Positions 1,656 through 38,261 of a stretch of DNA of 43,222 nt are shown here, piece after piece. A program made the translations under genes and the position numbers. This stretch comes from a virus, in the IMG/VR virus record IMGVR_UViG_3300034092_000355, positions 1 to 43,222 of that record. The stretch is one strand, 5' to 3'. The notes beneath the pieces are model-generated. The model was not told where the DNA came from, did not search any database, and saw only the letters and a list, made by a program, of their open reading frames with translations. Within the stretch, counting starts at the first letter, position 1, and every line of letters starts with the position of its first letter.

Positions 1656-2498
1656 ATGTTTGGTATATCCGCATTTGCACAGGCCCCATTTGCGGCTCTC
1701 GGTGAAAACGTAGTCGTCGTTGCCCTGACGGGCGTGTCCGCGTCCGGGAATGTTGGATCAGTTCTCAGTGGGCAAGAACTAACGGGCGTGTCTGCGTCTG
1801 GGGCTGTTGGGTCTGTAACAGGCTCAAGCACCGTTGCTCTGTCGGGTGTTGCGGCCTCCGGTTTTGTTGGATCAGTTACTGCGGCTTCGACAGTTGCCCT
1901 GACGGGCGTGTCTGCATCTGGAGAGGTTGGCACTGTTGCTCGCGGGGACACAGCATTTGCTCTGTCAGGGGTAGAGGCTTTAGGGGGTGTTGGTTCCGTC
2001 GGGGTGACAAACTCTCTTGCCCTGATTGGCGTGTCTGCGGCGGGGGCCGTTGGTACTGTTTCTCGCGGGCCAACATTATTTGCCCTGACAGGGGTTGAGG
2101 CTTCCGGCGCTGTTGGGACAATGATCTACAACGAGTCGGATGCAACATCCGGCGATGTGGCAATAGGCGAAGTTGGCACAGTAGCCCCCTCTCTCACCGT
2201 CGCTCTTACGGGGGTGGCGGCTTCAGGTTTTGCAGGCACGGTGAGCCACAGCAAAACAATTGCGCTGACTGGAAATTTGGCAATCGGAACCGCTGGATCG
2301 GTTGGGTTTACAGAGTCTTTTGCGCTGTCTGGGGTGCAAGCCTCGGGCGCGGCTGGAACTGTAATCGCCGTTTATTGGATTTTGGTAGATGACAGTCAAA
2401 CTCCAAACTGGCAAAATATCAACGATTCTCAAACACCCAACTGGGCGCTGGTAAATAACGCAGAAACGGCTGATTGGTCGTTGGTTGAGACGGATTAA
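1656..2498 (+). CDS. Repeat-built virion protein (about 11 GV-rich repeats, then W repeats)
   Basis: A 280-aa protein. After about 20 N-terminal residues come roughly eleven tandem units of 18-21 residues with the consensus ALTGVxASGxVGxV plus a variable linker of 5-8 residues. The last ~40 residues switch to a second, shorter repeat of about 11 residues ending in NW or DW (DDSQTPNW, NDSQTPNW, NNAETADW). Repeats of this kind fold as elongated beta structures in phage fibres and spikes. The repeats are imperfect at DNA level, so they are old or under selection to diverge. It follows the structural paralogues and precedes the fibre cluster. Probably a fibre shaft or tail-surface protein; not proven. 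Confidence 0.7.
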   Translation: MFGISAFAQAPFAALGENVVVVALTGVSASGNVGSVLSGQELTGVSASGAVGSVTGSSTVALSGVAASGFVGSVTAASTVALTGVSASGEVGTVARGDTAFALSGVEALGGVGSVGVTNSLALIGVSAAGAVGTVSRGPTLFALTGVEASGAVGTMIYNESDATSGDVAIGEVGTVAPSLTVALTGVAASGFAGTVSHSKTIALTGNLAIGTAGSVGFTESFALSGVQASGAAGTVIAVYWILVDDSQTPNWQNINDSQTPNWALVNNAETADWSLVETD

Positions 2499-14065: not shown

Positions 14066-15817
14066 ATGATTAACGTCAATCAGATCACTTCGCAACTGGC
14101 CCGGATGCCAGACCAAGCGTTGCAGCAGTACGCCATGATGCACAAGAACGACCCGTACACGGTGTCGCTGGCGCTGTCCGAGTCTAACCGCCGCAAGCAG
14201 ATGCGCGATGCCGCGCAGGGCCAGCAAGGTATGGCACCGCAGCCCAAAGTGGTCGATCAAGGTATTGCCGGTATGGCGGCACCGAGCGAAATGAACCCCG
14301 CTCAAATGGAAGCGCTGATGCAGCAGTTGGATCGGAAAAAAGAACAGGAATACCGTGAGTTCACTAGGGGCGCGGCTCCGGCTCCGCAGCCCATGCCAGA
14401 AGATGTGGGTATCGGCGCTCTCCCAGCGCCCAACATGCAGGGCATGGCCGGTGGCGGCATCGTGGCTTTTGGTGGTGGCGGAGACGTGCAGCGGTTTGAT
14501 GGTGGTGGTGCGGTTGACGCCGCTCGCGCTAGGCGAGACGCCGCGCAGCAAACACTGTACACATACGGGCTTCGTCAGCGTAGGGATGATCCGCAGGGTT
14601 TTATGGCGGCACAAAACGAATTTAACACGGCGCAACAAGCTGTCGCCGCTGCGGAAGCTGCATATGCGGCAGAAATGTCCGGCACAGGCACCACACGAGC
14701 GGCAATGGGGGCGCAAGACGTTGGCGCAACCAAGCAATTTTCAACACTACCGGCAGTAGCTCCCGCAGTAGTACCCCCCGTAGCTGCTGCGCCGGGTGCT
14801 CCAACCCTCCGTTTCCCCCCTACTGCACCCCCCGCTTCCAGTGTTAAAACTCCCCCTGTTGCGGGTCCTCGTCCGGCTTCTGCTGCCAGTAATAAGCCCC
14901 CCGTTGCGCCTGTTGCTCCCGCCGCTCAAGCAGGGCTTGGCGATCTTGCCACAACGTATTCGGACATCCTTAAAAAGCAGGACTTTAAAGACCCTGCCGA
15001 AGCAAGGCTGGGCGCTTTGGAAGCGAAGGAACGGGCTGCTACCGAAGAAAACAAAGCTGCACTTTTGCGCGATCAAGCAAAATTTGACGACGCGTACAAG
15101 GGGCGTGAGAAACGCTTGTCTGACCGCGAATTGGACATTGGCAAGCAGAAAGACACCAACACAGGTTTGGCGCTTTTGAACGCGGGTCTGTCCATCATGT
15201 CCACTCCGGGCGGATTGGCTACGGCTATTGGCAAGGGTGCGCAGGTTGGCACCGCGCAGTTTGCTGCCGGTTTGGACAAGATTCGTTCCGCACAAGAGCG
15301 CTTAGACGATGCCAGAGACAAGATGGAGGACTTGAAGCTCAACCGTGCTGAGATGTCCGCCAAGCAAATCCGAGATGCCGAAAAAGACATCCGCAATGTG
15401 GGCATCGACGCAGAGAAGCGCGGTATTGATGGCCTCCGTATGGCTGCTGATGTGAACCGCAGAACAGCGGCGGACATGTTTAAGGCTACTGTGGACGTAG
15501 GCGTCAACCGCGAACGGATGGAGTCCGCGCAAAACATTGCCGAGATGCAAGAAAAAGGACAAAGCTCACGGTCTGCTGCGCAGATTGCTGCTACGCTCAA
15601 CACACCTGACCGGCTTATCTTCAATAAACTGCTCAAAGACAACAATAACGATGCCGTCGCAGCCGCTACTGCGCTTCAAAAATTAAAAACTGAAAAGTTC
15701 AGCGTAACCACTTCTTACGCTGACTATTTGAAATCGTTTGCAGGCAAAGACACTTTGACACCGCCCCTGTCTTTTGCCAACTATGCGGCACAATTTGGGG
15801 CTACCCTGCCGCGTTGA
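14066..15817 (+). CDS. Internal virion protein with Gly-rich and coiled-coil parts
   Basis: A 583-aa protein in three parts. Residues ~1-110 are helical (QITSQLARMPDQALQQYAMM). Residues ~125-150 carry a Gly-rich phrase (MAGGGIVAFGGGGDVQRFDG) related to the GGI-type phrase near the end of the 654-aa protein. A Pro/Ala/Val-rich linker runs at ~225-290, then a long charged coiled coil from ~310 to 480 (ERLDDARDKMEDLKLNRAEM) that includes a GLALLNAGLSIMSTPGGLAT segment near 370-390. The last third is familiar from the internal proteins of aquatic podovirus-like phages. Probably ejected with the neighbouring 2618-aa protein. Confidence 0.75.
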   Translation: MINVNQITSQLARMPDQALQQYAMMHKNDPYTVSLALSESNRRKQMRDAAQGQQGMAPQPKVVDQGIAGMAAPSEMNPAQMEALMQQLDRKKEQEYREFTRGAAPAPQPMPEDVGIGALPAPNMQGMAGGGIVAFGGGGDVQRFDGGGAVDAARARRDAAQQTLYTYGLRQRRDDPQGFMAAQNEFNTAQQAVAAAEAAYAAEMSGTGTTRAAMGAQDVGATKQFSTLPAVAPAVVPPVAAAPGAPTLRFPPTAPPASSVKTPPVAGPRPASAASNKPPVAPVAPAAQAGLGDLATTYSDILKKQDFKDPAEARLGALEAKERAATEENKAALLRDQAKFDDAYKGREKRLSDRELDIGKQKDTNTGLALLNAGLSIMSTPGGLATAIGKGAQVGTAQFAAGLDKIRSAQERLDDARDKMEDLKLNRAEMSAKQIRDAEKDIRNVGIDAEKRGIDGLRMAADVNRRTAADMFKATVDVGVNRERMESAQNIAEMQEKGQSSRSAAQIAATLNTPDRLIFNKLLKDNNNDAVAAATALQKLKTEKFSVTTSYADYLKSFAGKDTLTPPLSFANYAAQFGATLPR

Positions 15818-23743: not shown

Positions 23744-23937
23744 GAAACACGGTCGGGGAGGCGATAGAACCACACCCCGATGATGCCGTTACGGATGCCC
23801 GCAATAGCGCGGGCATCTCGGTATCTCAACGCTTGGTTCAGCCCCTTGATGCGCACGGCTTCCGTGTCGAGGCAGGGGACAAAGAACCCCTGTCCTCGCT
23901 CAGTCTTGTCCCACGGGAACCGAATTGAGTAGCTCAT
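23740..23937 (-). CDS. Small conserved phage protein at the convergence point
   Basis: A 65-aa protein starting SYSIRFPWDKTERGQGFFVP and containing LNQALRYRDARAIAGIRNG. I recognise the layout (SIRFPWDKxxxGQGFFVPCLDT, helix, IGVWFYR end) as a small protein found in many aquatic phages without known function; it resembles a tiny alpha-beta DNA-binding fold but this is speculative. ATG 23937 follows AAGGATA and lies inside the end of the primase-helicase gene (38-base overlap). Its stop overlaps the stop of the giant plus-strand gene by 4 bases. Confidence 0.75.
   Translation of the reverse strand: MSYSIRFPWDKTERGQGFFVPCLDTEAVRIKGLNQALRYRDARAIAGIRNGIIGVWFYRLPDRVS
23794..23817. other. Perfect 9-bp stem-loop near the tail-to-tail gene junction
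   Basis: GATGCCCGC (23794-23802) and GCGGGCATC (23809-23817) form a perfect 9-bp stem with a 6-base loop, about 50 bases past the stop of the giant plus-strand gene and within the 65-aa minus-strand gene. It could act as a bidirectional hairpin limiting collision of the two convergent transcripts. There is no T-run on either side, so it is not a standard intrinsic terminator, and it may simply be coding sequence for the ARAIAGIR segment. Confidence 0.35.
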
Positions 23938-26851: not shown

Positions 26852-27034
26852 TTACGCGAACAGGTCGAGTTGCTTTTCGTCGCGGACGGGGTATTCGTTG
26901 ATAACGGCGAGGCGGCAGAAGCGGGAGTACAACTCAAACTGAACGTCGAGCGGGAAGCCCTCTGCTGTCCAGATGTTGTCGCAGTGCAAGATCAACTCGC
27001 GGTTGCTCAGGCTTGAAGGTTGTAGTGTTGACAT
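26852..27034 (-). CDS. Small conserved protein upstream of primase-helicase
   Basis: A 60-aa protein (STLQPSSLSNRELILHCDNI; later VINEYPVRDEKQLDLFA). I choose ATG 27034, which has GGAA seven bases upstream; an ATG at 27046 gives four more residues but has its purine-rich site only 1 base away. It overlaps the end of the HTH gene by 28 bases and ends 15 bases before the primase-helicase, so the three are one transcript. Small helical proteins with the phrase LSNRELI occur beside replication genes in related phages. Function unknown. Confidence 0.65.
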   Translation of the reverse strand: MSTLQPSSLSNRELILHCDNIWTAEGFPLDVQFELYSRFCRLAVINEYPVRDEKQLDLFA

Positions 27035-27285
27035 ATTTTTTTCCATGCCTCGTCGGCAGAGCGTGAAGTTTGAAGGAATTTGAGCAGCGTTTCTACGCGG
27101 TGCTCGTACGCAGGAAAGATGTCTCCGCCTGCGAACCAGTTGTATGCGGTCTGGCGTGTAACGCCTAGCGCTTTGGAGATGCGAACGACAGAGAAGTCAT
27201 GGTGAACAGCCCAACGTCCGAGCTGATTGCCCGGAGTCTTCGGCGCACGCATAACCATGTCGATTGTTTTTTGTGAGTAGGCCAT
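27007..27285 (-). CDS. Helix-turn-helix DNA-binding protein
   Basis: A 92-aa protein with a Cro/CI-like helix-turn-helix at residues ~31-52: FSVVRISKALGVTRQTAYNW, where ISKALGV is helix two and RQTAYNWF the recognition helix. The N-terminus contains KTPGNQLGRWAVHHD, typical of single-domain phage regulators that sit beside replication genes. The C-terminal part is helical (HRVETLLKFLQTS). No strong ribosome site precedes ATG 27285; instead the G-run/C-run element A ends 10 bases upstream, so its translation or transcription may be controlled through that element. Target sites are unknown. It need not be a lysogeny repressor, since no integrase is visible. Confidence 0.75.
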   Translation of the reverse strand: MAYSQKTIDMVMRAPKTPGNQLGRWAVHHDFSVVRISKALGVTRQTAYNWFAGGDIFPAYEHRVETLLKFLQTSRSADEAWKKICQHYNLQA

Positions 27286-27295
27286 AAGGGTCTTA

Positions 27296-27394
27296 AAGGT
27301 GGGGGTACTCGCTGCGTCTGTGCCTTACTGGTTATTGCCACAATTCCCTGTTACGGGTCAGAGGCATCACAGCATCCGCTTTCCCCCCGAAACT
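27296..27394 (-). repeat. G-run/C-run intergenic element, copy A
   Basis: On the minus strand it reads AGTTTCGGGGGGAA at its 5' end and AGTACCCCCACCTT at its 3' end, 99 bases in all, filling the gap between a stop codon (27398) and the HTH start codon (27285). The end blocks match copy B (27993-28079): 14 of 14 bases at one end and 18 of 19 at the other (27376-27394 against 28061-28079). The interior differs but can pair internally (CTGTG with CACAG, CCC with GGG around GTAACA), and the end runs can close the structure (GGGGG with CCCCC). It could be a structured 5' leader, a protein-binding site or a paired operator. Confidence 0.6.
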
Positions 27395-27397
27395 TAC

Positions 27398-27682
27398 TTA
27401 GGTCTTGGCAGGGAACAGTTGGGCCAGCACAGCCTCATACTGGGTCTTGCGGCGCTCCAGCAGCGCTACCTTGTCCAGCTTGTCCAACAGGCTCGGGAAG
27501 TTGATGTCTTCCTTGGCGCACTGCTCTTGGATGTCTGCCTCAAGGCGAATGAGTTCATCGTCCAGCTTGGCCATCTCTAGCTCAGCTTGGCTGCGAACCT
27601 TGCGTGCTCGGATGGGTGCCAGTGCTTCGGACAGTTTCTCCTTGGACATGGCGATGATTTCTGCGAATGGTTTGAGTTTCAT
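27398..27682 (-). CDS. Coiled-coil protein
   Basis: A 94-aa, almost fully helical protein: KPFAEIIAMSKEKLSEALAP, then a basic stretch (IRARKVRSQAEL) and a heptad-like run (AKLDDELIRLEADIQEQCAK), ending ERRKTQYEAVLAQLFPAK. Small coiled-coil proteins of this look occur between ssDNA-binding and primase genes of many phages; no function is known. ATG 27682 overlaps the stop of the upstream gene by 4 bases and has AGGAGAAACATT upstream. It is followed at once by the G-run end of element A. Confidence 0.7.
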   Translation of the reverse strand: MKLKPFAEIIAMSKEKLSEALAPIRARKVRSQAELEMAKLDDELIRLEADIQEQCAKEDINFPSLLDKLDKVALLERRKTQYEAVLAQLFPAKT

Positions 27683-27978
27683 AATGTTTCTCCTGTGAGT
27701 AAAAGTTTGTTGTCTGGTTTGTTGAGGAATGCCAACGGGCTTTTTGGATCGTGTTTTGGTTTTTGGCTCTGTTCCTGACTCATCTGACCGAAAAGTGCTT
27801 GGCCTCCCTGTATGTGCCCGAAGCCTTGTTGCACGTACATCTGCTGCTGCTGTATGAGTCGGCGGTAGTCTTCCTCTTTCATGTGGCGAAGCTGCATCTC
27901 ACGCTCGTGCTCGTACCTCTCTCGCTCAAGATATACGTCACGGTTGGCATCGTAAAGCTGGTTCGTTGTTACTGCCAT
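27679..27978 (-). CDS. Charged helical protein of unknown function
   Basis: A 99-aa protein with a long charged helix (residues ~10-50: YLERERYEHEREMQLRHMKE, then a Gln run RRLIQQQQMYVQQ) and a flexible Ser/Pro/Lys C-terminus. No family recognised. ATG 27978 is preceded by CAAGGAGAAAGAC, a strong site, which itself begins just after the CCCCC end of element B. Its stop overlaps the next gene by 4 bases. Probably accessory to replication by position only. Confidence 0.6.
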   Translation of the reverse strand: MAVTTNQLYDANRDVYLERERYEHEREMQLRHMKEEDYRRLIQQQQMYVQQGFGHIQGGQALFGQMSQEQSQKPKHDPKSPLAFLNKPDNKLLLTGETL

Positions 27979-27992
27979 GTCTTTCTCCTTGT

Positions 27993-28079
27993 AAGGTGGG
28001 GGTACTGACGGTGCTCTCCTTGTGACGGCACCAGTTTATTGGTAGAGAGCGAGGCGACTCCCGCGTTCCCCCCGAAACT
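27993..28079 (-). repeat. G-run/C-run intergenic element, copy B
   Basis: An 87-base relative of the element at 27296-27394, with the same ends on the minus strand (AGTTTCGGGGGGAA and AGTACCCCCACCTT). It starts 3 bases after the stop of the ssDNA-binding protein gene and ends 15 bases before the ATG of the 99-aa gene. The interior differs from copy A but again can fold: GCTCTC pairs with GAGAGC, ACCA with TGGT around ATAAAC, and GGGGG with CCCCC at the base. Conserved ends, variable yet pairable middles and the same position relative to flanking genes suggest one functional element in two copies. Confidence 0.6.
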
Positions 28080-28081
28080 AA

Positions 28082-29053
28082 TTATTCGTCATCCCAGTCG
28101 GCAACGACATCGGCCAGCGCTTTCTTGCCGGGCACAGCCGTTGGCTTTGCCGCTGCTGCCTTCTTCACGACTGGCTCTTCGTCTTCCTCGGGCGCTTCGA
28201 CCACTGGGGCTGGCTTGGCCTTGGCTTTAGCCTTGGGGGCTGGTGCGGGGGCTTCGTCTTCCTCGGGCTCTTCGACCACTGGTGCGGCCTTGGCCTTCGG
28301 CGCTGCACCCTTGAGCGCATCAGCAGGCTTGCCCATGTCCATACCAGTGGAGTCCATCGTGATGGCTTTCTTGGCTTCGGCGGTGTCGCCCTGCTTGGTG
28401 GCTTCAGCGAACTCGTCATCAGTCAACCAGCGCATGGCCTTGAAGAACAGCTTGGGGGACTCGCTGGCAGTGTCGAACTTCATGCGGGTCACAACAGTGC
28501 TCGGGTCAACGCCTTGGGCCACGAGCCAGCGTGCGTACGCTTGCAGTGGGCGGTTGTCGCCTTCGTCCTTACCGAAGATCGAGGTGGCTGGCAGGGATAA
28601 CTGCATCACATCGCCTTCGATGTTGTTGGCCAAGACGACTGCCAAGCGCTGCTGGTAACGGCAAGCGCGGGTATTGCCAGTACCGGAACCGGCCACGTTC
28701 TGTGGGCAGGCTGCGCAGGTGTCGGACTGTTTGTTCTTGCTATTGGAGTCTGGTGTGTCGCCATCGTTGGACTGACAGTCAGGTTTGGCGGCGGTTGCGT
28801 CCTTGTCGTACTTGGCGGCGTAGAACACACGGGCCACTTTCGGTGCGGCCTTGACGATCACCACATCGAGGAAGCGCTCATCGACTGCTGCGATTTCTTT
28901 GCCGTCAGAGATCAGACGGAACACGCCACCTTTGATCGACACGCGTTTGCCGCTGGCACCACCACCCGCAAGGGCTTTGGCAATGTCAGACATCTCGGCC
29001 TTGCGTGCGAAGGCGGGTACTTGGGCGGGGTTAAACAGAGCTACATTACTCAT
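28082..29053 (-). CDS. Probable single-stranded DNA-binding protein
   Basis: A 323-aa protein. The N-terminal ~215 residues look like an OB-type phage ssDNA-binding core (RVSIKGGVFRLISDGKEIAA; FLDVVIVKAAPKVARVFYAA; LQAYARWLVAQGVDPSTVV) with four Cys spaced for a zinc site (C93, C113, C116, C131). The C-terminus is a long Ala/Pro/Lys linker with two related blocks (APVVEEPEEDEAPAP and APVVEAPEEDEEPVV) and a short acidic tail (DWDDE). Acidic tips in ssDNA-binding proteins contact polymerase and helicase. It lies between the SNF2 helicase side and the primase-helicase side of the replication block. Function assigned from layout and context; I did not confirm a family match. Confidence 0.7.
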   Translation of the reverse strand: MSNVALFNPAQVPAFARKAEMSDIAKALAGGGASGKRVSIKGGVFRLISDGKEIAAVDERFLDVVIVKAAPKVARVFYAAKYDKDATAAKPDCQSNDGDTPDSNSKNKQSDTCAACPQNVAGSGTGNTRACRYQQRLAVVLANNIEGDVMQLSLPATSIFGKDEGDNRPLQAYARWLVAQGVDPSTVVTRMKFDTASESPKLFFKAMRWLTDDEFAEATKQGDTAEAKKAITMDSTGMDMGKPADALKGAAPKAKAAPVVEEPEEDEAPAPAPKAKAKAKPAPVVEAPEEDEEPVVKKAAAAKPTAVPGKKALADVVADWDDE

Positions 29054-37474: not shown

Positions 37475-37625
37475 GCTCGTCCTCCTTTGCTTCATCAATC
37501 AGTTGCTGTTTAACAAACTCCAAGCAGCCAACCACGGTTGCCGAGTACAGGGTGTCATCGTATTTGTGGATTGTGTTGAGCAAGTCCTCCACAAAGCTGT
37601 CTATAAGTTTCTTTTGGTCAGTCAT
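37467..37625 (-). CDS. 52-aa helical early protein
   Basis: A 52-aa protein: TDQKKLIDSFVEDLLNTIHK, then a middle of YDDTLYSATVVGCLEF and an acidic end (LIDEAKEDEHD). The codons for AKEDE carry AAAGGAGGACG, the ribosome site of the following 43-aa gene. ATG 37625 follows AAGGGGACAAGC and overlaps the stop of the gene upstream. No family recognised. Confidence 0.6.
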   Translation of the reverse strand: MTDQKKLIDSFVEDLLNTIHKYDDTLYSATVVGCLEFVKQQLIDEAKEDEHD

Positions 37626-37846
37626 GCTTGTCCCCTTGCTCGGATTGCTTCGGCAATGAACTCGCTCACGGCATCGTCAGGGATAAACAAACTCTCAATT
37701 AACTGAGCACACGCCTCACGCTCATCAGCACGGACAAGCTCAATGAGCTTTGGCAAGTTCACATACCCGTCCCAGTCGTTCTCTACCCACGCTTGTCGAG
37801 CGAACTCTCTGTCTGCTTCGCTCATGTCTTTCATGCGCTTGTTCAT
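37622..37846 (-). CDS. Tandem REACA/RARG family protein, copy 3
   Basis: A 74-aa helical protein (MSEADREFARQAWVENDWDG; ELVRADEREACAQLIES) ending EAIRARGQA. It is the last of three neighbouring paralogues that share EREACA or EREECA followed by ~25 variable residues and AxxIRARG. The final codons provide AAGGGGACAAGC, the next gene's ribosome site. The family is common as multiple copies in Burkholderiales phages; no function known. It starts in GGGGGAACACATGA. Confidence 0.7.
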   Translation of the reverse strand: MNKRMKDMSEADREFARQAWVENDWDGYVNLPKLIELVRADEREACAQLIESLFIPDDAVSEFIAEAIRARGQA

Positions 37847-38043
37847 GTGTTCCCCCTCGCTCGAATGGCTTTGCCTACACCTAAATTTGTCCCTTCACAC
37901 CCCTCTATGTATTCGTCAGCCAGCTTCGCACACGCCTCACGCTCTGCTGCTGCGACAAGGGCGGCAAACTTAAACATAGATTCGGCTGTTTCAAAACTTG
38001 CATTCGCCTCACGCGCCATGCGGATGATGTCTTCTTGTGTCAT
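37843..38043 (-). CDS. Tandem REACA/RARG family protein, copy 2
   Basis: A 66-aa protein: TQEDIIRMAREANASFETAE, then AAAEREACAKLADEYIEGC and the closing KAIRARGNT. Related to its two neighbours. I choose ATG 38043, which overlaps the upstream stop and follows CAAGGGGGAACAC. The longer frame would begin inside the previous gene. C-terminal RARGNT is encoded by the next gene's ribosome site and start. Confidence 0.7.
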   Translation of the reverse strand: MTQEDIIRMAREANASFETAESMFKFAALVAAAEREACAKLADEYIEGCEGTNLGVGKAIRARGNT

Positions 38044-38261
38044 GTGTTCCCCCTTGCTCGGATGGATTCTGCACAAGCTAACTCAGGTCGGTCGCCATAA
38101 TAATCTTCCAAACTGTTAATTCCCTCGCAGTGTTTTGCACACTCTTCACGCTCATCAGCACGGACAAGGGCTTCAAAGCGCTTGAGAAACGGCAACAGGC
38201 TGTATTCGTCATCAATCACAACCATGCCAGCCTCACGGGCCATCTCAATGATTGTTTTCAT
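38040..38261 (-). CDS. Tandem REACA/RARG family protein, copy 1
   Basis: A 73-aa protein: KTIIEMAREAGMVVIDDEYS, EALVRADEREECAKHCEGI and the closing ESIRARGNT. First of three paralogues in a row. The LVRADERE(A/E)CA coding part shares an identical 23-base stretch (38146-38168) with copy 3 (37716-37738), supporting duplication or exchange by recombination. ATG 38261 overlaps the upstream stop (GCATGA). Function unknown. Confidence 0.7.
   Translation of the reverse strand: MKTIIEMAREAGMVVIDDEYSLLPFLKRFEALVRADEREECAKHCEGINSLEDYYGDRPELACAESIRARGNT

Follow-up and report, generated by a model that had tools for sequence, protein, structure and literature searches.

The 43,222-nt viral contig IMGVR_UViG_3300034092_000355 of IMG/VR (positions 1 to 43,222, referred to below as the window) carries on its minus strand two intergenic elements, A (27296–27394) and B (27993–28079), which belong to an apparently undescribed family of folded phage RNAs. 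Read along that strand, B stands directly after a 323-aa gene (28082–29053), and A follows two genes on, between a 94-aa open reading frame (ORF; 27398–27682) directly upstream and a helix-turn-helix (HTH) gene (27007–27285) downstream. The 323-aa gene matches phrog_27714 (unknown function; E 2.7e-31) and its product, which resembles a single-stranded DNA (ssDNA)-binding protein, ends in the acidic C-terminal tail DWDDE. It has no Pfam match, its AlphaFold model reaches a pLDDT of only 46 and Foldseek returned no PDB match at E ≤ 0.001, so that its ssDNA-binding role is a putative one. The 94-aa ORF has no PHROG or Pfam match. The HTH gene matches HTH_23 at E 3.6e-4, below the Pfam cut-off, and by sequence has no clear ribosome site, as a preliminary description of this DNA had remarked.

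That description had reported two gaps bounded by the same end blocks, beginning just past a stop codon and finishing before a gene start. A scan of the window agrees: both 14-nt blocks recur exactly at the two sites, A and B begin 2–3 nt past stop codons (TAA at 27400–27398 and 28084–28082) and a start codon lies 10–14 nt beyond the end of each. Neither block has a further site at up to two mismatches, the first occurring also at 14772 with three. The joined two-block pattern, with a gap limit that admits B only, gave 1 match versus 0.00 in 100 shuffles; with a wider gap it picks out the two elements alone within the record. The end blocks turn out to be complementary, the G-run of one facing the C-run of the other, so that together they form a single closing helix of 5 bp, P1.

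In element A, a cassette of frame and variable interior that scores 66.5 bits (E 1.9e-16) against the family model R1 introduced below, the P1 arms are GGGGG (27384–27388) and CCCCC (27301–27305), all positions here being on the minus strand. P1 encloses a core whose 5′ strand, GAAAGCGGATGC (27372–27383), holds the GAA of a loop-E-like step and whose 3′ strand, ACGCAGCGAGTA (27306–27317), holds the AGUA; both strands fall in near-invariant columns (for the 5′ strand in the alignments A1/A2), partly fixed by the search pattern. Further in lie helix P2 and the variable interior (27318–27371), where CTGTG (27372–27368) pairs with CACAG (27322–27318). Directly after P1 comes ACC (27298–27300), an instance of RCC placed like tRNA residues 73–75, which is a predicted RNase P contact; the predicted cut lies between 27389 and 27388.

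Element B represents a second subtype. Its P1 arms (28069–28073 and 27998–28002, minus strand) and the ACC that follows (27995–27997) are evident in the sequence, and by analogy with the family the ACC may serve the same contact, with a predicted RNase P cut between 28074 and 28073. B scores only 14.1 bits (E 0.069, filters off) against R1 and shares with the family no more than the closing helix, GAA/AGUA and the RCC tail. Eight distinct B-type sequences could be aligned, in which one inner pair is C-G in L100 (loci of relatives are numbered with L), U-A in L112 and G.A elsewhere. The interior helices reported earlier, CTGTG/CACAG in A and GCTCTC/GAGAGC in B, are correct. On their own, A and B are not clearly better folded than their own shuffles (z of −0.76 and −0.54 with flanks, −0.71 and −0.96 without), and the case for structure therefore rests on relatives.

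A family of folded RNAs with exchangeable interiors

Viral contigs were scanned for the two ends with nothing fixed between them (TTTCGGGGGG-N50-80-GTACCCCCACC). This end-block search, proposed in the preliminary description together with a look for covariation, found 118 stretches, and the part common to most of them exceeds the query, reading GAAAGCGGATGCTG ... CAG(AC or T)GCAGCGAGTA. A second, core scan fixed the inner core and left P1 free; it returned at least 120 stretches in viral contigs, some already in the first scan, and all core-scan counts given here are among the matches listed. In the 257-Gb GTDB bacterial and archaeal collection the core pattern occurs in 6 stretches, one of which (L240) lies inside a long ORF, has no P1 and seems fortuitous. 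When 50,697 phage records were searched by blastn, using A and a composite query, one record proved to contain the element, MW202879.1 (52.4 bits; source Manatee Spring), where the match to A is weak and partial, yet the complete element is present. An 18-base match to a Synechococcus phage in the same records was taken as chance, and no DNA relatives of the 2.3-kb region were found among phage records.

Rfam 15 gave nothing at gathering score in the whole window. Over 26900–28400, searched to E ≤ 5, its best matches (E 0.36 and 2) were at chance level and outside both elements, and none was to the C4 antisense RNA family. On 12 relative loci it identified three tRNAs and nothing else, and on nine loci with other hairpin classes nothing at E ≤ 0.5. 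No description was found in Rfam or in PubMed Central full text, searched by topic and by sequence word, most subscription literature lying outside that search. Within Rfam 15 and those full texts, the earlier suggestion that the element had not been described before thus holds, and what emerges is a structured RNA, absent from Rfam, in well over a hundred environmental viral contigs.

The closing helix varies freely: P1 reads GGGG/CCCC, GGCC/GGCC, GAGGC/GCCTC, GTTGG/CCAAC and others in the core scan, and its four inner positions are paired in 90, 91, 91 and 86 of 92 members, with GC, CG, TA, AT, TG and GT all occurring. Model R1 was built from 48 members (AC type, ≤84 nt). Across the whole structure of these members 92.9% of pair cells are paired, compared to at most 54.3% in slid controls, and 80 cells are changed on both sides versus 30.4 in shuffles; two pairs of P2 covary in the same set. 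The preliminary description had proposed a structured RNA with compensatory change, which the relatives strongly support; its comparison of A with B does not carry the point, since the two are different subtypes and their differing interiors are not in themselves compensatory evidence. On average the interiors are more stably folded than shuffled ones (mean z −0.83 for 122 interiors, −1.44 for the whole element).

Between the helices, GAA opposite AGUA, which we take to be the letter pattern of a loop-E (sarcin–ricin, bulged-G) module, is near-invariant, its letters being partly fixed by the search patterns. Because the search pattern itself fixed the core in most of the 48-member set, part of the invariance seen there is built in; the core is also conserved, with some variants, in the first scan, where only the ends were fixed. 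The layout shown by comparing the relatives is an RNA-like hairpin made up of a P1 of free sequence, a near-fixed core with the loop-E-like GAA/AGUA step, P2 and an exchangeable interior.

Exactly one R1 match (E ≤ 0.1) was found in 29 of 30 long contigs (30.5–90.6 kb, selected among the loci of the first two scans) and two in the remaining one. A multi-copy repeat, such as a repetitive extragenic palindromic (REP) sequence or a miniature inverted-repeat transposable element (MITE), is rejected on this single-copy distribution. The comparisons confirm, at the level of sequence, that the element is real: a folded RNA of environmental phages, usually with one copy per genome. At L120, L155 and L209 a weaker second copy lies in tandem directly behind the first.

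Interiors are swapped as cassettes between close relatives. We analysed 161 combinations of element and flank, with a P1 of at least 4 bp required and failures dropped uncounted. They hold 122 interior clusters at 85% identity, 13 of which recur in two or more unrelated downstream flanks. Conversely, 20 flank clusters hold at least two interiors each, with up to 20 at the HTH locus, and among 38 pairs whose flanks are both at least 85% identical the interiors share less than 65% identity in 24. For example, L007 and L094, from contigs about 93% identical over several kilobases, have immediate flanks that are 100% and 99% identical and interiors at 49%. The interior of A occurs both at the HTH locus and at an unrelated locus (L033, L094), and again in L199 and L211 with another P1 and a CUUG terminal loop. 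Among HTH-locus relatives, hairpins of other classes or a bare GGGGGC-UUCG-GCCCCC occupy the place of the element. The interiors themselves gave little sign of a shared motif: the most frequent 9-mers reach the same recurrence in shuffles (3 and 3), and T-loop-like hairpins, a motif picked after being seen, occur in 6 of 122 interiors versus about 0.1 in mononucleotide shuffles.

Upstream genes and the tRNA-like end

A co-oriented ORF stops within 40 nt upstream of 135 of the 161 elements (median gap 6), compared to 15 of 161 in a mirror control; the test used a crude ORF finder, ORFs of at least 70 codons and gaps measured to an arm taken as 6 nt. In a looser ORF pass, 65 of 194 elements were overlapped by some ORF. 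The upstream ORFs form 40 clusters, and the largest comprise proteins that resemble ssDNA-binding or annealing proteins but belong to unrelated families. Those named by a library are PHROG SSB (14 elements), PF10991 Enc34 ssDNA-binding (7), PF00436 SSB (4) and RecT (2), together 27 of the 135 overall and 21 of 66 in the core scan. The remaining assignments are putative and derive from an acidic tail or DUF669: phrog_27714 with a WDDE tail (30 elements), DUF669 (8), Pam3 gp34 with a DDVPF tail (5), a small protein with an acidic PF tail (5), a cluster with an EDDPLPF tail (3), phrog_862 with DDDVPF (3) and one with a DEDLPF tail (1).

The core scan is unaffected by the bias of the first scan in P1 and flanks. 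Of its 66 elements with an upstream ORF, 40 follow an ssDNA-binding- or annealing-like gene (21 by hidden Markov model name, 17 by acidic tail, 2 by DUF669); for comparison, relatives of these clusters make up 71 of the 1507 background ORFs at those loci. The acidic-tail pattern alone is found in 52 of 135 upstream ORFs versus 76 of 2434 background ORFs. The element repeatedly marks the end of ssDNA-binding-type genes unrelated to each other. The 126 downstream ORFs form 40 clusters (not annotated with hidden Markov models), and the 40 ssb-like core-scan loci are followed by the HTH gene in 3, by another ORF in 30 and by none found in 7.

A protein-binding leader and a paired operator were among the suggestions of the preliminary description. 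For the family as a whole, such control of the gene downstream is not the best reading, the elements abutting the upstream stop, and we do not favour an operator of the HTH gene as a general role because that gene lies downstream in only those 3 of 40 loci; at the HTH locus itself such an operator is possible. There, 57 distinct gaps before the HTH gene include 55 with a hairpin or element, and the gene upstream of 39 of the 57 is ssb-like with an acidic tail. The two gaps without a hairpin whose upstream gene is not ssb-like (L297, L316) are only 2–3 nt long; an upstream ORF could not be found at L266 or L271, where visual inspection shows no hairpin either. An R1 match at E ≤ 0.1 is present in 9 of 21 contigs chosen by their HTH gene. 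This locus is ambiguous, and the upstream link is carried by the other families in the core scan.

The 3′ end of the element resembles that of a tRNA acceptor stem. We defined the end of P1 by reading outwards from the core until pairing stops, which gave 106 distinct P1/flank contexts with a P1 of 4 bp in 31, 5 bp in 59, 6 bp in 15 and 7 bp in 1. RCC follows P1 directly in 73 of these and one base earlier in 14 (87 together), with other offsets at 0–3 of 106, and the first P1 pair, at the place of G+1–C72 in a tRNA, is GC in 86. An RNase P substrate would be expected to offer a stacked acceptor–T-stem ruler of about 12 bp, a length that P1, at 4–7 bp, might approach by stacking on the core. 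This register is independent of the length and sequence of P1, since 24 of 39 distinct P1 helices have RCC directly after them. Passages in PMC11143913 and PMC12710915 state that the L15 GGU of bacterial RNase P pairs with the RCC of its substrate, and a passage in PMC9433436 that leader–RCCA pairing hinders the enzyme. Here, among 99 contexts with the RCC register, C occupies −1 in 72, and G occupies −2 in 1 and −3 in 2, compared to 23% G further upstream; pairing of the leader with RCC is rare (14, 1 and 2 of 99, the 14 being −1 with residue 73). Presence of RCC also goes with an upstream ORF: 119 of 129 elements that follow an ORF have it, compared to 15 of 25 that do not (p 1.4e-4). In the ssb/HTH gaps RCC appears in 28 of 37 parses of complex hairpins, other classes included, versus 3 of 19 simple ones, in a rough parse that by eye mis-assigned L355, L364, L369, L341, L359, L365 and L287.

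Neither a tRNA nor a complete tRNA mimic is indicated: ARAGORN found none and Rfam no tRNA in the window, and the position of A76 is seldom A (17 of 106). Pairing of ACCU with a downstream ribosome site, as an anti-Shine–Dalgarno sequence, is not a general role because ACC is kept before the HTH gene, which has no such site, and in 3 of 3 strictly convergent cases (n = 3 only). Elements at L189 (5001–5934), L190 (11371–12074) and L236 lie within about 850 bases of tRNA genes; at L236 a tRNA-like 3′ end is seen by eye just upstream.

Proposed RNase P recognition and competing roles

Comparison across the sequences establishes the fold class, the place past the stop codon, the association with ssDNA-binding-like genes and the RCC end. 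From these we tentatively prefer a reading that is quite possible though short of probable, in which A, with B as a second subtype, is an RNase P-recognised, tRNA-end-like intercistronic RNA of a phage ssb-type replication operon. Lying on the coding strand right past the stop codon, the element would be co-transcribed with the upstream ssb-type gene. Host RNase P would recognise P1 and RCC and cut at the 5′ base of P1, separating the ssb message from the sequence that follows and so, presumably, affecting expression. The core would then remain, either as a structured 5′ terminus or, once trimmed at the 3′ side, in the form of a small stable RNA. The interior, which would need only to fold and could hence be freely swapped, may be exchanged by recombination between the conserved arms.

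Several observations weigh against RNase P processing of an ssb-type operon. RNase P cleavage would take a 3′ hairpin away from the ssb mRNA rather than add one. By the position test 26 of the 161 elements have no upstream ORF; no ssDNA-binding features were seen in the 94-aa gene before A, and neither Pfam nor the fold search supports such a role for the 323-aa protein. At the HTH locus, upstream and downstream effects are not separable: a hairpin is present in 16 of the 18 gaps whose upstream gene is not ssb-like, and an ssb-like gene lacks a following hairpin in L347, L352, L365 and L369 (in the contigs of L347 and L352 a hairpin comes one small gene later, at L253 and L259). Of the 21 HTH-related contigs, 12 are without an R1 match at E ≤ 0.1, and a bare hairpin of the GGGGGC-UUCG-GCCCCC type replaces the element in L265, L267–L269, L286 and L309. 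RCC is lacking in 20 of 154 elements. Its absence is not significantly tied to a promoter-like site (RCC to none 12:4 versus 122:16, p 0.23), though the three elements listed with a perfect −10 box (L157, L198, L231) are without RCC. The low G content of the leader flanks may only reflect an A/T-rich spacer by the stop codon. Lastly, the base after RCC is mostly U and not A as in tRNA, and so lends no support to a CCA end or to complete mimicry of a tRNA. The heaviest of these objections are the 20 of 154 elements that lack RCC, the absence of ssb-like features in the gene before A, the ambiguity of the HTH locus and the replacement of the element by bare hairpins.

The bare hairpins invite another explanation, which we consider rather unlikely: the element could be a passive barrier, a stable intercistronic hairpin that needs no specific enzyme and shields the upstream message from 3′–5′ exonucleases or insulates the genes, the elaborate RNAs being merely one route to a stable, RNase III-resistant stem. 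Placement directly past the stop codon would suit this, as would the fact that most elements are not ordinary intrinsic terminators, a role we rejected for them since TTTTT lies within 12 nt in only 7 of 161. A barrier leaves unexplained, however, why the core is near-invariant in unrelated contexts, why RCC keeps its register regardless of P1, why P1 clusters at 5 bp and why one copy per genome is usual. A core with non-canonical pairs between two covarying helices does resemble a binding site, and a cis-regulatory RNA to which a protein or ligand binds could act in autogenous control by the ssDNA-binding protein, in antitermination through RNA polymerase binding like that of HK022 put or in control of the downstream gene. 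Such a regulator would fit the −10-like box directly before some elements (L157, L198, L231), L122 and L197, which by eye look like leaders of the next gene, and the HTH locus, where the presence of a hairpin is tied to the HTH gene no less closely than to the ssb-like gene. We nevertheless regard cis-regulation as unlikely: the upstream proteins belong to unrelated families while the core stays the same, so that no single phage protein can be the ligand, and the downstream ORFs are spread over 40 clusters.

Single copies and the wholesale switching of interiors in close relatives (24 of 38 pairs) would instead suit a small RNA that is released from the operon and acts in trans, the interior providing specificity in immunity or exclusion as in the C4 RNA of phages P1 and P7, reportedly a precedent for an RNase P-processed phage antisense RNA (Hartmann, 1995). 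Such a role appears improbable to us, as no antisense partner of the interior was found above chance in 99 loci (mean longest match 8.76 for own versus 8.73 for foreign interiors) or above shuffles within the window, and since the loop can be replaced by CUUG with the rest retained (L005 versus L199). It is likewise improbable that the RNA is excised from the ssb operon by host RNase P and that its hypervariable interior, exchanged by recombination, serves in trans as a strain-specific determinant in competition, exclusion or counter-defence; if true, it would be comparable, at the RNA level, to an immunity repressor or a variable tail fibre, a single scaffold carrying numerous exchangeable versions. 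The recurrence of one interior in unrelated flanks (13 of 122 clusters) and the variety of interiors at a single locus (20 at the HTH gene) would also be expected of a mobile DNA cassette of MITE, REP or attC type, whose frame is the site of a recombinase on folded single-stranded DNA. This is very improbable: the element is not multi-copy, its orientation follows the upstream gene (135 of 161), and other hairpin classes replace the whole element in place, an outcome also expected from recombination in the flanking genes.

The proposed RNase P recognition has parallels in known systems. The C4 antisense RNA is likewise a small phage RNA inside a longer transcript, is cut by RNase P and would share the acceptor-like end, a proposed feature; the element differs in having no Rfam C4 match and no antisense target found, and its cleavage is predicted only. 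The P4 CI RNA is presumably another phage substrate of RNase P. In E. coli, RNase P reportedly also cleaves polycistronic mRNAs (Li and Altman, 2003), a likeness in that the presumed substrate is polycistronic; those are host operons, in which we know of no conserved element, whereas here a conserved element is exchanged among phages. Gene 32 encodes the ssDNA-binding protein of T4, and its pseudoknot is located in the 5′ leader. A passage in PMC12710915 describes a pseudoknot with ACCA after it in T2/T4 gene 32 mRNA, a claimed RNase P substrate, thus also an ssDNA-binding-protein message with a fold and then ACC. The element instead lies behind the gene and folds as a hairpin around a loop-E-like core.

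Other phage and bacterial hairpins resemble the element in place or mobility. The regulatory cassettes of T4-type phages, reportedly mobile and made of an early promoter and a stem-loop (Arbiol, 2010), are also intergenic hairpin cassettes shuffled among phages, whereas the element has a fixed frame with a variable interior and usually one copy per genome. REP sequences and bacterial interspersed mosaic elements are multi-copy, simple hairpins just after stop codons; the element shares that position and differs in its complex core and in being single-copy in 29 of 30 contigs. The testable claim here would be that phage replication operons are processed by the RNase P of the host, acting on structures with a tRNA-like end, an idea that to our knowledge has been raised only for single phage cases (gene 32 mRNA, C4 RNA). 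A fixed frame with a switchable interior offers a natural series for RNA engineering, and the exchange itself calls for explanation.

Further hairpin classes and repeats

The gap before the HTH gene holds further arrangements. At L265, L267–L270, L272 and L277 the hairpin is flanked by a ribosome-site-like GGAG on its 5′ side and, immediately on its 3′ side, by the start codon, an arrangement that looks as if folding of the hairpin joins a split ribosome site. Another structured class, GGGGAAGTAGTGG..GGGTTAGCGCC..CACTGCTTTATGTG..CACTGCTTCCCC, without RCC, occupies this gap in L308, L319 and L321 and shares pieces with an array hairpin in L135. A further class of more than 100 nt, GCTGGGCCGCAGGCAGCGG..GACTGCGTTTCCTGCCCTGCGTGTCCCAGC, was seen in L245, L252, L253, L259, L260, L264 and L285, the last being a variant; it has no Rfam match in L245 or L285.

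In five loci the element is followed by tandem hairpins of other frames: L135 (817–1300), L143 (1061–1620), L165 (1573–2290), L172 (4104–4500) and L197 (6400–7023, minus strand). Their frames are ACGCATGRGGATTG..CAGTCCYCAGCCGT, TTGGTGAATGCGCAGGCTGATGCGC.. and GCCGGAGATCAGCRCCGGC, sometimes behind a −10-like box. These arrays are possibly long multi-hairpin phage RNAs, and by eye some lie near terminase-looking genes.

Elsewhere in the window, a 45-nt unit is repeated ten times at 1719–2363, mostly with 60-nt spacing, within the ORF at 1656–2498 (plus strand). Blocks repeated three times about 200–220 bases apart at 37621–38168 run over small minus-strand ORFs and are likely duplicated small genes. 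The gap between two gene blocks at 23744–23899 has a strong predicted fold of −76.6 kcal/mol for 156 nt, a raw energy without shuffle comparison.

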